In this document: positions 3,501-12,500 of the stretch, one piece after another | Layout of the letters: each line of letters begins with the position of its first letter | Numbering within the stretch: position 1 is the stretch's first letter | DNA from: Cliona cf. orientalis | Taxonomy: Eukaryota; Porifera; Demospongiae; Clionaida; Clionaidae | Assembly (NCBI GenBank): GCA_963930775.1 | Contig: OZ005700.1 | Span: 788,976-852,975 of the forward strand | Reading direction: 5' to 3' | Length of the DNA stretch: 64,000 bases | Translations under genes and position numbers: made by a program | Notes under the pieces: model-generated | The model's input: the letters and a program-made list of their open reading frames with translations, nothing else | The model's database searches: none | What the model was told of the DNA's origin: nothing

Positions 3501-6500
3501 AGACAGATAGCTATTCAAAACACTCGTAGCTAGCTAGCTAGGCTACTCACAGTCAACACAGCGGCTAACCTCGCTCAGTCAGCGATTTCGAGTTGGATGG
3601 TTCTTTGTCTTGTCACTATCAAAGTTGAATTTGTTTCTATGGAGCGGCCTGTTTCCATGGAGAAGAGCCATTGTATGGGGTGCCAAATGTATCAAAAGTT
3701 TTCATTTTTACGACATATATATATCAGCACTATATATAATATTCCTGGCCATACATTTATATATTGTCTGTGGTATTTATTATATGTGAACGCATATTTA
3801 TATACCCCAACCCTTTATATAGAGTCGGCCAAACATTTGCAAACGTGCTTCTCATTATGCATATATCGCTGTACACTTATATTATGTGAGCAGCTTATAC
3901 TTAAATGACTGTGGATATGTATACACAGTCAAGAGTAAGAAATATTGCCATACATTAACACAGGCAGTTGAATCTTTATATACCTGTACCTACATTTATA
4001 ATATTATCTGTGTATATGCAAACTTTTGTCCACATTTATTAATGTAAGCGATCTATATAAACTACGCGTTATGTTTATTTCATCTGTATGGGCGTTTAGA
4101 TATGCACAATGACATTTAAACGCAATGCAACATTTATAAACATCACAGTACATTTATAAATCGGGTGCCGGGTACCAGCGGCGCAGCGCGAGACCCCGCC
4201 CCCGTGACTAGACTGGGGCTAGGGTACAAGGCTCGCGCGCGCTTAAACTGTCACGTGACCGCTCAATCTACCGTACGTACGTACAGGGGGTGCCTCGCTA
4301 TCGTGCTGGATCTGAGCTGCCTTGCAAGATGACCTCTCCAAACAACAGTCTGGTCGTGAATACGAGCGGAGTGCAAGCTCTTTCCAATGCCCTTGCCGTG
4401 GCACTGTATCAGGCTACTTCTGGCACCGGCAGCCCATCGGCACTAGCTACGAGCGGCGTTGCCAGCGCTTCGATTCCTCCGGCCCCAGCCCATGTCAACG
4501 TGGCTCAACAGACTCAGCCTAACACCTCTTCAAGTACGGATCCCTCCTCAACTCAACCTGCGTACGTGTATTGATTGAGTTATGATAATTCAATGCTTAC
4601 CTACGTTGTATGTAATTCCAATTAGTGCACCACACAATGATTGTACATAATAGCCCTCTCAGGGTAATGTCTGGTGTGCATAACATTACCATCCTATATA
4701 GGCGTCGTCCAAACGCAGCATTGGCCCTACCATCCATCTTTAGGCAGCGACAACGTGCTGCGTCTAATAAGAGTAAGCGCCCAAAAGTTGTCCAAACATG
4801 GGATCGAGATATTGTGTGCCTGCCAGAATGTCTATGCATTCGTGGAAGTATCAAGTATCCCCGAGGCAAGTACCGAGCACGGCTGGGAAATCTTGGACTG
4901 ATCGGTAAAATTCATTTGACATCAGACATGACTGTGGAGGAGGTGGCTGGTGAAGTCCGTTCAGTCTTTAAGAAGCCTATGTTTGAGAGAGCTGATTTTC
5001 CGTTTCAGTATCTTCAACCTATGGGTACGGGAAGCAGGTGCCTAACAATTCCAGCTGTGTCCTCTTCTTTTGCCTGGACCGCCAAGCAGGTTGCTCGGTT
5101 GGGCACCAGCACCGGCACTATTTATATCCTTGCCAAAGCTGATTTGGAGCTAGATGATGAAGAAGAGGTATTACATGTACCTATGACTAATACTCAGTAT
5201 GACCATTACCAACAATTTAATGTAGAGTGAAGAGTCCGATGATGAGGGGCAGAACTATAAAGGTATCGATGATGAAAGGTAATGTATATGTCTGTGCTAA
5301 TGGAATTTATGCATGTTGTACATATAGCGTCGTCCCCAGGCCACTCCTGATTTCTTTGCACACACACAGAGCTAGAGTGGCCTGGTAACAAGTCTGTATT
5401 AGGTGGGCTAGAGACCTGAAAGTAATCTCATTGTAATATCTACCATAGTGTCTCGGTTACATGTATGTGCTTAACCGTAACTCGTGATTTTGGCCCACAT
5501 GGGCACCTACCTAGGATATAACTTTCATACGTTTGTACAGAAGCTGCTACACTGACCCCTTAAAATGAGCGCTTACCCAGGACGCTATAGTATGTATATA
5601 CTAGAATGTGATATCCTAGTCCAAGTCCTATAGTCTTGTACCCAAGGGATCAAGAGATAGTGGCGTGTGTTAAATAGAATACAATATTCACTATTTTGCA
5701 TTCAGCTGTACATAATCCATTCACTACTTGGAAAGGAAAGGAACCCTTTGATGTGGTGTTTATTTATGTACTTTTTTATAAGGAGGACTTTGTGTGGGGC
5801 TACAAATATCCATAACACGCATATACATGGATCTGTTTCCTATAGACCTGAGCCTACTACCCCCAACCACAGTGCACGTGTACATGTATCAGTTGATGGT
5901 GATCACAGAACATCCCCTCCTGGTCACTCTATTAGTCACACCTATGGTTCACGTCAGTCAGATCACCGCTCTGAGGAGAGTGCATCTACCCATTATGAGT
6001 ATGTGTGTGTGTGTGTGTGTGTGTGCATGTGTGCATGTGTAAAGTGCAACTGGCGTGAACGTGTTAGACGCTACACATTATTACTTCATTCAATTACCTC
6101 TTCTGCGGTGTATATGTAGGGCCTATGTTGATCTTATCGATTTGACTAATGAACCACCAAGTGAGGGAGAATCCAGTGATTTAGATGATTTACCACTGAC
6201 TGAGGTCTCTCTTTCATCCACATATGACAAGTATGTTAGTGTATGTGTATACAGGAGCATATGAACCGCCAAAGATACTGGCTTTTGCCCCCTCCCTTGG
6301 ATTGATTTACCGTATTTCTTCTAAAAATTCGGCATGAAAATAATAATATTGCTTTAGCTTCGCCGAATTTTTAGAGGTTAATATTCAACGTTCTGTCAGC
6401 GTGCGCATTTCATTCCCGTTTGTAGCATACACGCATGACGACCTTTGCCGAAAAATTAGAGACTATATTCAATCATTCGGTAAAGGGTGCCGAATAATTA

Positions 6501-9500
6501 GAAGGGCCGAATTTTTAGAAGAAATACGGTAATGACTTTTCCTATCTTTAATGTGGGATCCCCCCTTGAAGTTGACAGTAGGCACTTACCCCCTCTTGAG
6601 GACTTACATGTAGCATACCACCCACTTTACTCGTATTTCAGAATCCAAACAACATCTTCAGTAGATACCATAAAGGTGAAGCACATTCTCCTGCAACATC
6701 AGGTGAAAGTGGTACGTGGTGAACATGAGGAAGACTTTCAGCCAATCCACATTCGCAGGAGCTCTATTTTTGAGGATGCTGTGAGGGCATTCAGCAAACC
6801 ATCCTTCGATTCTGCCAAAATGTTTAAGGTGCGATTCATTGGTGAATCTGCAGAGGATGAAGGTGGACCGAGACGAGAGTTCTTTCAGCGACTCATGAAA
6901 GCTGCTTTTCAGTCCCAGGCAATGTTCAGTGGTTGGCCATGTCACACTATTCCGGTTCATAACATCACTTCAATTACTAACAACCACTTCTTTTTGGTTG
7001 GAGTGATGATTGCCACAAGCCTCATCCAAGGTGGTCAAGCACCTGCTTGCTTTTCCCCTGCAATAGCTGACTACCTTGTATATAATGATGTCAGGTCTAA
7101 ACCCTGCATTGACGACATCCCTGATGCAGATGTTCGTGAGGCTATGAAGGAGGTATGTGTGCAATAGTCTCCTAAGAAGACGTCATTTTATGTTGGATGT
7201 GTGGGCATTAATACAAATTAACAAAAGTTAATGATGCGTTGTGTAAATTATATTATGCATGTACATACACATTATTACATGCTGCACTGGCATGTACATG
7301 TACATGCAGTGTTTCCCCCAGCATACCTGAATCAGGGTGGGCCACCCGGTTTGACTTTGGGCTAATTGGATAAACATCAAAGAAATGGGTGGAGTTTAAA
7401 GCCACAACTTAATTAAAAGCCTATGAATATCATTAAGCATCCGGTTTGGATTCTGTTCTGGGGGAATCCCTGTACATGTACATATACCTAGGAGACTACG
7501 TTATTAATTTAATAATAATGATAATATTATACTGGGGAGAATACTGTGTCTGTACATATACATACATTCTCTCTCTCCCTCCCCCCTCTCCCTCTCTCTC
7601 CTCTCTCTACATCTCTATGTAATTTGCAGATAGATGGGGCAACAACCACGGTTGAGCTACAGAGCTTAGTTAAGCTGGAAAGATTTGATTTCCGGTTCAA
7701 TTGTGGCTACACTAAGCCAGCTACAAATATTGTGATTGATGATAAAGATCCATTCATAAAAGCAATCTGGCTTCACTACACCTACTTTCTTCCGCATGCT
7801 GAGTTGCAGCAGCTACAGAAGGGATTTAGAGAGACATTGCAGATGGAACTTTTGGTGTGCCTGCATCCAGATGAAATTCGAGCCTTGCTTGTGGCGTCAT
7901 CTCTCTATGATGTCAAGGCTTCCTTCTTTCACGATCACTTTGTTGTTCAGTATTCTGAACAAGGCTCAAATGGACGAACTGCAGAAGAAGCAGTCATGCT
8001 CAACTGGGCGGAGTATATTAACGAGTGTGCTTCAGGTACAGATGATGTGGCTAGCATAGTATAGTCATAAGCGTGCACATGTGTATATCAGTGTATGTAT
8101 GTGTGTGCGCATGTGTATACCAGTGTGTATTTGTGAGTGCATGTTGTTCATGCATGTATACAGGTTTTGTGTTATGTGTGCTTTCCCCGCCATCCAAATC
8201 CATGCACACATACAGGAAATGGTCCTGTTAAGCTGGGTGATATTCTTGAGTTTGTGTCAGGAGCTTCTAAGATTCCACCCAGTGGATTTCCAAAAAATCC
8301 ATCAATCAAATTTTGTGATGATGATCGATTGCCCAAGGCATCTACGTGCGATGTGAGTATTACATTTCCACGGAAGCTAGGCTTGCTGCAGTTTGACCAA
8401 TTTAAAGAAATGTTAGACCTAAGCATTTTGGGATCTTGTGGATTTGGAAATGTTTGATCTAAACTTTTGCTCCCAATTCACTTGACTATTATATAAATAA
8501 AAAAAATCATCATTTCATTAATAACAACTTAGTGACTACTCAAATACACCATGTCAGTGTTTGATGTTTTCATGCATGATTCATTCATTTGAACAATCTA
8601 TACATCCTGATTGTAAGTGTTGACCAACAAGATGAATTATTTGTGTGTAAAACCGCCTTCCATTGTCAGTACATCGAAGCATGATGTTTATGGCTGACAA
8701 CTGTGCCATAAGAGCAGTACATGGATGATATGAATTTCGACTGACTTCTACTCTATCACCTGCCATTGACGCAACATCTACAGTCACAGAAGATAGCTGA
8801 ACATCACTTGGGTAATTACTAACTATGTAATTGATCCCTTCAAAAAATAGTTGGTGTGGTGTCATATTTCCCTCCGTAGATATAGCATGCTCATTCCAGC
8901 TGTCCTTAAATTCTGTCAGAGATTGGTTAATCCTGGGTAAATACACATAGTGAAGACAGTAGAGATCGAGCTCATTTAGGGGGTCAAGTGTGTGGTTATC
9001 TTCCAACTCCCTAAAAATCTGATAGTATACACTAGCCACACAACGAAACACATCACGCCATAATCTTTCTATTCGCTCGTTGTGGGTGGAAGATCCTGTA
9101 ATTACACTTGATAGGTCATTACTGTGGGTTGCTAACATAAAACGCCACACATCTACATTTTCTCCCCCATGGTCTGTACGAACGCTATTGGGAAGGCCAT
9201 ATGTTGACACACCCTCTTTGAAACCATCAAGTACTGTGGTAGCACGGTTATTATCAGAACATTTCAGAAAGGTAATTGTACGAGAGTAGCCATCAATAGC
9301 CGCATGTGTTACCAGTCGCCAACGTATAAGTTTGTGGTTACCATCGAGGTGCCACACTGAATTGGGATGGTCAGCTGAGTACACTCGGCGTTTAACAACA
9401 CTTGCTCTTCGTAATCGAGTATTTGCTTCATCCACTCGGTGGATTGACGCACGTAAATCTTGTCTCCTAACATTGATGTTGAGTCGGCGCAAGTGACCCT

Positions 9501-12500
9501 GCATCAAAACTTCACCATCATTAGGATGGTCACTTTTTATTGACCGCACAATTGAATCTAGGGTTGAATCAGATATCTGAGTACGATCATCTGGGGATAT
9601 CCCATTTTCTTCTAGTCTTCTATACAGAGTAGCTCGAGATATTTCTAAAATTGAGGCTATTTTGTTCCATTTGTAGTTTAAGGCACGCAGTGCCAGTATA
9701 TCTGTGATAGTAGCGTCCTTTCTTGGGCGACCTTGACATCTACAAAATAATTAATGTATAAAAGTATATAATCTGATCTCATTTTTAGGTATCTTCCTTG
9801 CAACATTGAAAGCAGGAAATATGTCAAATTTATAGTCAAGGACACACCAGCAGCTCAAAATATAATTTATGGTGTCATAAACAACTTCACTCTAACCATG
9901 CAGGCTAGGGGTGGAGTCTGCATGATACTCAGCCACCCCCAATATAATAAATTATTTTGTGTTAAATTATTAAGCTAATAAACTCTATAAGCTTACGGTT
10001 GAGTTGAGGAGGGATCCGCACTTGAAGAGGTGTTAGGCTGAGTCTGTTGAGCCACGTTGACATGGGCTGGGGCCGGAGGAATCGAAGCGCTGGCAACGCC
10101 GCTCGTAGCTAGTGCCGATGGGCTGCCGGTGCCAGAAGTAGCCTGATACAGTGCCACGGCAAGGGCGTTGGAAAGAGCTTGCACTCCGCTCGTATTCACG
10201 ACCAGACTGTTGTTTGGAGAGGTCATCTTGCAAGGCAGCTCAGATCCAGCACGATAGCGAGGCACCCCCTATACGTACGTACGCGTATACGGTAGATTGA
10301 GCGGTCACGTGACAGTTTAAGCGCGCGCGAGCCTTGCGCTAGTCTCGTCCCCAGACCCCAGGGGTGGGGTCTGGGGACGAGACTAGCCTTGCGCCTGCGC
10401 CTATACCCTAGTCTAGTCATGGGGGCGGGGTCTCGCGCTGCGCCGCTGGTACCCGGCACCCGATTTATAAATGTACTGTGATGTTTATAAATGTTGCATT
10501 GCGTTTAAATGTCATTGTGCATATCTAAACGCCCATACAGATGAAATAAACATAACGCGTAGTTTATATAGATCGCTTACATTAATAAATGTGGACAAAA
10601 GTTTGCATATACACAGGCAATATTATAAATGTAGGTACAGGTATATAAAGATTCAACTGCCTGTGTTAAGGTACCATTAAATTGCGTGGGCGTGAGGTGG
10701 GGGATATGACACCTAAACCACATCAAAGTCATTAGTGAGGTGCATGTTGTGTAACCACGCCCTTTTAATTGCACAGGTCTCAGGGGTGTGGCTGCTAGAG
10801 CCGGAAGTGTTCATTTAATATCCTCCATGGACCGGAAGCCGAGCCGGAAGGGAGGGGCCAGGCCACGCCCAAAACAGCCCCACCCTGTTCCCCAAGGACC
10901 ACCATTCTCAATCAAGTGCCTACTAACCACCGGATGTCCACCGGAAGCCCACAATCAATCCCAATTAAAACACACAGCTTCCTCAAGGCCAAAACACACA
11001 CAAACACTTGGAGGCCGTTCTGCCACACCGCCCACGCAAGAGCTCACCTCATTTCCTGTGTGGGCGGAGTAACAACACGTCATCGCAACCACATCCGCTT
11101 CAAACCATCGTCGGCTTCCGTCCAGCCGTACAGGCCCCTCGATCGCACCGCCGTACAGTGCCTCATTAACAGCCATGGCCTCACCTTTGACCTCCTGCCA
11201 CGCCCCCAAAGCCTCCTCGCGGGGTTCAAAGGTCACCACCGCTTCCGGGACACGCCCACCTATCGCCGAGACCAAGTCCCAGGCGCCGATGTCCAAGCAC
11301 TGGCCCGTGAAGCCACGCCCAATCGGAAGCAATAAAACCTGCATTAACGCACACGCACACACTCCACACAGTGCCAGGAACACGCCCACATGCTTAATTA
11401 GGCCTAATAAGCTTTTTTTTTTTTTTTTTTTTTTTAAGTCGTTGCGGTTAATAGTTAAGAAAGAATGCTTTGATCTTGCTTTGATGTGGGCAATTACCGG
11501 CCTTTTCTTCAGGGGCCACTTCCGGTCGCTAATTACACGCGCATAATCATCCCTGGCCGATTCTGGACACGCCCACCTTCGACCAAAAGCACTCGTATGG
11601 CCTCTTCGGCCACGCCCCTTCACGATTCGCTAATTGAATTAGCCATTCCTGACGCTCACGCCCACGCAATTAAATGGTACCTTAATGTATGGCAATATTT
11701 CTTACTCTTGACTGTGTATACATATCCACAGTCATTTAAGTATAAGCTGCTCACATAATATAAGTGTACAGCGATATATGCATAATGAGAAGCACGTTTG
11801 CAAATGTTTGGCCGACTCTATATAAAGGGTTGGGGTATATAAATATGCGTTCACATATAATAAATACCACAGACAATATATAAATGTATGGCCAGGAATA
11901 TTATATATAGTGCTGATATATATATGTCGTAAAAATGAAAACTTTTGATACATTTGGCACCCCATACCATTGACCAATCAGCGGTGAGATAAAACACTGC
12001 GGGGGCCACCGTTTACTTCCTCGGGATATAAATTAGTTATATCACGTGCACTCGGGATCTATGGCGACATATTGCACTCAGCCCTCGGGCGCAAAGCGCC
12101 CTCGGGCTTCGGTGCAATATATATATCGCATAGATCCCTCGCGCCCGTGATATAACTATTACTTGAATTTATTTACCATTTCAGTGTCATCTGACAGCTC
12201 GTGCTCACTCTCAGATGTAAAACTGTCAGAGTTTAAGTCCTATCACAGGGAGATATAATTGTAAGATCACTGCTAACGATAAGTGCTTGAACTGATGGGG
12301 TTGATTTTTACCCTGTATATGCTCAAAGGGTAGATATTGGTGGTTTTATTACTTACAGATAGGTTGGCTTCTTGTCCCATAGTAGACGTAGACGTAGACG
12401 ATGGGCCAGGGGGTGCACGCAAGCTTTTGTTTGAGTTGTTTTCCTATCAATTACATGATGTTGATTGTATGAACTGATTGCTATATATATAGATAGGTGC

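Follow-up and report, generated by a model that had tools for sequence, protein, structure and literature searches.

The 64,000-nucleotide stretch of the genome of the sponge Cliona cf. orientalis considered here (contig OZ005700.1 of assembly GCA_963930775.1, positions 788,976 to 852,975 of the forward strand; hereafter the window, in whose numbering positions are given) contains an 8293-bp element at 3674-11966. Judged from its sequence it is most probably a cut-and-paste transposon of the IS3EU/GingerRoot type, the long terminal inverted repeats (TIRs) of which appear to supply one coding first exon to both of its genes. These two genes lie convergently between the tips, a DDE transposase on the minus strand and a HECT ubiquitin ligase on the plus strand.

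An earlier note on this DNA had described an element of about 8.3 kb with a 6-bp duplication, matching ends and inverted arms, all of which is borne out. The target site duplication (TSD) CCATTG can be read directly at 3668-3673 on the left and at 11967-11972 on the right of the element proper, the termini of which are TATGGGGTGCC and GGCACCCCATA. The left arm (3674-4558, plus strand) runs from TATGGGGTGCC to the last common base of exon 1, is defined by the inverted repeats I1-I4, and its homology stops at the end of that exon. The right arm (9997-11966, minus strand), traced from inverted-repeat blocks and an arm alignment, is broken up by nested insertions and is longer than the left because it holds a nested element of ~1.0 kb with TTAA duplications as well as an insert of ~61 bp. 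The arm blocks of 289, 268, 58 and 287 nt are 100, 98, 93 and 99% complementary, respectively, with these identities taken from the inverted-repeat search, as the arm alignment is misplaced beside the nested insertion and was not used for them. Chance is excluded as the source of this anatomy, because the long inverted arms and duplicated target site recur in two further elements.

The shared exon lies in the innermost part of the arms. Exon 1 of the HECT gene (4329-4561, plus strand) is 233 nt in length, begins MTSPNNSLVVNTSG and is of phase 2, with an open frame and a GT donor, and exon 1 of the transposase gene (9997-10226, minus strand) is 230 nt in length and also of phase 2. Both exons have the same ATG start and there are only 2 differences over the shared 230 nt; of the 77 residues of the encoded leaders 76 are identical, the exception being T/A at residue 73. 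The arm homology of the window copy ends exactly at the end of exon 1, reading ...CAACCTGC/GTACGT on the left and ...CAACC/GTAAGC on the right, where the slash marks the exon end. The predicted junctions, 4561/4702 in the HECT gene and 9997/9739 in the transposase gene, have GT..AG ends and keep the frame; the earlier proposal of an ATG and an exon of about 76 codons in each arm, joined in frame at these junctions, thus holds in the sequence. Both genes would open with the same exon because it sits inside the arms. In the spliced models the next methionine after the leader is residue 156 of the transposase, which is past its helix-turn-helix (HTH) at 80-121, and residue 154 of the HECT protein. 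In three of four cases, the window transposase and both the transposase and HECT gene of a related element (family C, below), there is no in-frame ATG from exon 2 back to the nearest upstream stop, so that in those three genes no start other than the leader can be seen.

The transposase model joins exon 1 to exon 2 (8581-9739, minus strand) to give a protein of 462 aa, in agreement with the length and the DDE integrase type first suggested for it. Its core is integrase-type (Pfam rva_4, PF24764, E 5e-79), with D209, D266 and E301, picked by eye, likely to be the catalytic residues, and it carries a resolvase-type HTH (HTH_7, E 1.8e-4, slightly below its curated cut-off). The identity of the partner as a HECT ligase also stands (PF00632, E 1.5e-17, residues 442-723), with the length originally given, 743 aa, replaced by 724 aa in the model built here. 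That model has eight exons, the leader being followed by 4702-5167, 5226-5278, 5846-5998, 6120-6230, 6642-7152, 7630-8035 and 8216-8457 (4702-8457 overall, plus strand), with in-frame joins and GT/AG ends; the choice of exons was made by the analyst and the small middle exons are uncertain. Solved HECT ligases in the PDB match the protein from E 1.6e-10, and Cys689, within LPKASTC, aligns with the TC motif of AREL1 and is likely to be the catalytic cysteine in the C-lobe of the HECT domain.

A search of the genome for other copies with the same exon in both arms, which the earlier note had proposed, found two. The searches cover the 217-Mb genome from which the window itself comes, and the counts of matches are lower bounds throughout. 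The leader-bearing elements are three in number, the window copy, a copy termed c2 and the family C element, each with the leader in both arms. The left arm detected one further element, c2 (C1:25.301-25.332 Mb), which is ~31 kb long with nested insertions and roughly 10% diverged. It has the TSD TCAACA, the same TATGGGGTGCC and GGCACCCCATA ends and, as in the window copy, donors that are specific to each arm, CTGC/GTACGT on the left and CAACC/GTAAGC on the right. The transposase gave at least 110 matches, several per element, amongst the closest of which was locus L022, within the family C element (C1:33363247-33385401). The transposase of this element is 53-70% identical to that of the window in tblastn pieces and is broken by stops. 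Its ends are again TATGGGGTGCC and GGCACCCCATA, and its duplication is imperfect, GGGCGC/GGGTGT, with two C/T differences. The family C leader, MATGSSNSGIVSVTGNVQALSNAIAVAI..., is found in both arms, with 94.4% identity as protein and 209 of 215 bases in common, and the arm homology of 476 bp at 94.7% ends 7 bp beyond the exon, after a common GTAA. Exon 1 is 215 nt and of phase 2 in this family, and by eye the phase-2 acceptors of both genes match the positions of those in the window copy.

The six leader arms were recovered only by the two leader searches combined. With the C leader (E <= 1) all five matches were leader arms, both of C, both of the window copy and the left of c2; with the window leader (E <= 5) all six matches were, namely both window arms, both c2 arms (the right in two pieces) and the left arm of C. 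The structural reading passes the check set for it in the earlier note, that the leader frame be conserved in other copies: it is conserved as protein in family C and is open in the left arm of c2. The exception is the right leader of c2, in which a frameshift, a stop and a small deletion are present, and the transposase of that copy is also broken.

Comparison of the window and C leaders provides the evidence for constraint. As protein they are 46-49% identical, and blastn of the window arms against the C arms gave no match. Over 64 aligned codons the differences at codon positions 1, 2 and 3 number 30, 18 and 45, different codons are used at 24 of the 32 identical residues, and the local score of 102 compares with at most 76 in shuffles (n=2000). 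Read from the aligned codons, this pattern is one of purifying selection on the protein. The stretch from V15 to A25 has nine of its 11 positions invariant, and an AlphaFold2 model of the leader built from five sequences predicts one helix at residues 12-31, spanning this most conserved stretch, with disorder elsewhere.

Among the loci examined, the pairing of the two genes is wider than the sharing of the exon. Nine were examined closely, chosen (not at random) because they were closely related or had a HECT match in the vicinity, and in eight of these (the window copy, c2, A, A2, B, C, D and F, not E) a HECT gene is convergent with the transposase. The sister elements A, B and F are like the window copy in having convergent HECT and rva_4 genes, but differ in their shorter TIRs and in having no recognisable shared leader. 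Element A has ~90-bp TIRs, a 6-bp duplication AATACT and TATGG-type ends, element F has ~200-bp TIRs, and element B has TIRs of ~300-360 bp that end ~10 bp short of the start codon of the transposase and ~95 bp short of that of the HECT gene (both start codons placed by eye). The leaders that can be read in A (transposase), B (both genes) and F (HECT) are no more similar to the window leader than are shuffles. Element D (C1:25.16 Mb), on the next branch outside the clade in a tree of transposase cores, has inverted arms of ~250 bp and HECT fragments, with gene starts not found; in element E, over the 15.9 kb read, there is neither a long TIR nor a HECT match on the side where one would be expected.

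The core tree was built from 27 of the 30 transposase loci L013-L042, leaving out L015, which is the same element as L017, and L024 and L025, which repeat the L023 match. A split with 99/97 support divides the three leader-bearing elements from the remaining 24 rows, the row of c2 being a frameshift-broken translation on a long branch, the exact placement of which is unreliable. As A, B and F have shorter TIRs and no recognisable shared exon, the sharing looks derived in one clade. The likely path is that shared TIR promoters came first, a stage that element B suggests, and were followed by extension of the repeat over exon 1. No match to the rva_4 family was found in 14 control genomes.

With regard to known systems, the closest likeness is to IS3EU. 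According to PMC10045372, these elements have TA..TA termini, usually a 6-bp TSD, and no HHCC motif before the transposase core. The TATGGGGTGCC..GGCACCCCATA ends are of this TA..TA form in all three leader-bearing elements, the TSD is of 6 bp (exact in the window copy and c2, imperfect in C), and before the core of the integrase-type DDE transposase only HTH families are found, with no zinc-binding family at E <= 0.1. The fungal TET+ IS3EU elements, as described in PMC12730594, have TAYGG..CCRTA ends and genes for a transposase and an alpha-kinase in opposite orientations; the ends of the window element fit this pattern and its gene layout is comparable. What differs from IS3EU is the HECT ligase as partner and the coding exon in long TIRs common to both genes, and the word HECT is absent from the main text of both PMC10045372 and PMC12730594.

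A further comparison is with MuDR, the maize Mutator element, in which 200-bp TIRs are the promoters of both its genes, both being needed for full activity (PMC8224964). The likeness lies in two genes with TIRs at their 5' sides, an anatomy that here, as known from sequence alone, is compatible with TIR promoters; the differences are an unrelated transposase, and that the MuDR TIRs are ~200 bp with no shared coding exon described in that account of it. Membership of the MULEs was rejected, as at E <= 0.1 only integrase-type and HTH families were found and no MULE family. Polintons/Mavericks are marked by genes for a protein-primed DNA polymerase and a capsid; in Pfam the two proteins of the window are neither polymerase nor capsid, no dedicated search having been made. 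In herpes simplex virus two genes, US1 and US12 (encoding ICP22 and ICP47), share a promoter and first exon that inverted repeats supply to both, although that exon is non-coding and the setting is a virus, not a transposon. The earlier note knew of no element that shares coding exon 1 through its terminal repeats, and neither a HECT-bearing transposon nor a first exon shared via TIRs was found among the matches listed in the literature searched, which did not take in Repbase reports or most subscription papers; MuDR is a precedent for shared TIR promoters, and the shared coding exon is without precedent among those matches.

The mechanism we propose follows the order of parts in the TIR, which from the tip would be transposase-binding ends, promoter region and a 5' coding exon in full. 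Two convergent mRNAs would be transcribed inward, one from either end, and would share their leader exon, spliced to the DDE transposase on one side and to the HECT ligase on the other. Exchange of sequence from arm to arm, by gene conversion or gap repair, may keep the two leaders alike. The leaders would be kept alike, and both genes held to phase 2, by the position of the exon within the inverted repeat, and exchange is suggested because the two copies within each family are still 94-99% identical when the families have diverged to 46-49% in the leader. The helix of the leader might then serve both proteins, ligase and transposase, as a shared tag for targeting or assembly.

A number of points weigh against this reading. 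The near-identity of the arms, which is seen in two of the three elements, could instead reflect recent insertion. Only the window copy is intact, with the transposases of c2 and C broken, and the c2 leaders have drifted apart (202 of 218 aligned bases identical, with the arms at 86-87% next to and over the exon), as expected for a decaying copy. Leader matches across families are weak genome-wide, at E 0.005 with the window leader and 0.09-0.5 with the C leader, compared with E 3.9e-9 for tblastn against the fetched loci only. Within a family the changes are too few to show selection, the window and c2 differing by 5 silent and 6 replacement changes (dN/dS 0.42 on 11 changes) and the left and right leaders of C by 2 silent and 4 replacement. 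The model of the leader has a mean pLDDT of 53.6 and so shows no clear interaction domain. The window HECT gene has in-frame ATGs at 4637 and 4667, within predicted intron 1, therefore a start that does without the arm exon is possible for that gene. Finally, the gene models were laid out on genomic sequence with a script and by eye, and it is from the anatomy and conservation that we infer splicing, promoters and leader function.

What the shared leader is for may be viewed in two ways. It is conceivable, if rather doubtful, that it is a functional matching tag, the exon being in the TIRs so that conversion keeps both N-termini identical; the proteins would then co-assemble via the helix VQALSN..AVA and the ligase would be brought to the transposon ends, there removing host repressors or turning over the transposase after cutting. 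It is quite possible that the TIR instead grew passively inwards over exon 1 by conversion or duplication, with the leader supplying only a promoter and start codon and the two N-termini having no joint function. Passive growth would fit with TIRs that vary freely in length in the sisters A (~90), B (~300-360) and F (~200 bp), with a leader of S/T/P/Q/A-rich composition, most of which is modelled as disordered, and with the TIR promoters of MuDR, which serve two genes (PMC8224964). It sits less easily with arm homology that ends at the donor in two families, to the base in the window copy and to within 7 bp in C, or with a leader that is conserved as protein between families, most of all at V15-A25, although this constraint could come from one gene alone.

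Two further explanations were considered. One is that the arm exons are idle or not used by both genes, with one or both proteins starting elsewhere, which gene models placed by eye and script, and the ATGs in HECT intron 1, would allow. The phase, the acceptors and the codon pattern are however conserved in the diverged family C, and the transposases of both the window and C, together with the C HECT gene, lack any ATG from exon 2 back to the upstream stop, making this explanation very improbable. The other, which we regard as more improbable still, is that a host HECT gene was caught by the arms and does not regularly belong to the element. Hosts commonly encode HECT ligases, and when the 30 transposase loci were searched by tblastn with flanks of 1.5 kb only, a HECT match was present at seven and absent at 23; against this, a convergent HECT gene and transposase recur in eight of the nine loci examined closely.

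Should the reading of a coding exon shared through the TIRs be confirmed, it would show how TIRs can move on from sharing promoters, the state known in MuDR and suggested by the anatomy of element B, to sharing parts of proteins. The element is a natural candidate for concerted evolution of a single coding exon belonging to two unrelated genes, dictated by transposon geometry, and through it one can ask directly whether the partner proteins of two-gene transposons have to be matched. That a transposon should have a HECT ligase as its partner also deserves study in its own right.

A number of other features were observed in and around these elements. Within a predicted intron of the HECT gene a short palindromic element, CCGTATTTCTTCTAAAAATTCGGC ... 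GCCGAATTTTTAGAAGAAATACGG, was seen by eye at 6310-6529. A stretch of 175 bp is 94.9% identical between the HECT gene regions of the window (7306-7480) and C (C1:33375647-33375820), where it lies in opposite orientation, and is probably a dispersed repeat. In element F, read as the reverse complement of the joined loci L061+L041+L062, a frame that by eye resembles a RecQ-type helicase lies at 10440-10778 on the minus strand, between the start of the transposase and the right TIR. Across the genome about 88 of at least 137 rva_4 matches (a hand count, with several matches per element) are in contig C1 at 16-37 Mb. Just beyond the right end of the window element, at 12034-12158, there is a 30-bp inverted pair (87%) with its halves 65 bp apart. 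The nested element of ~1.0 kb in the right arm lies at 10670-11681 (about 10666-11685), where it is recognised from its inverted ends (pair I5, 31 nt with TTAA) and from a gap of 1016 bp relative to the left arm, and is presumably a non-autonomous insertion of the piggyBac type.

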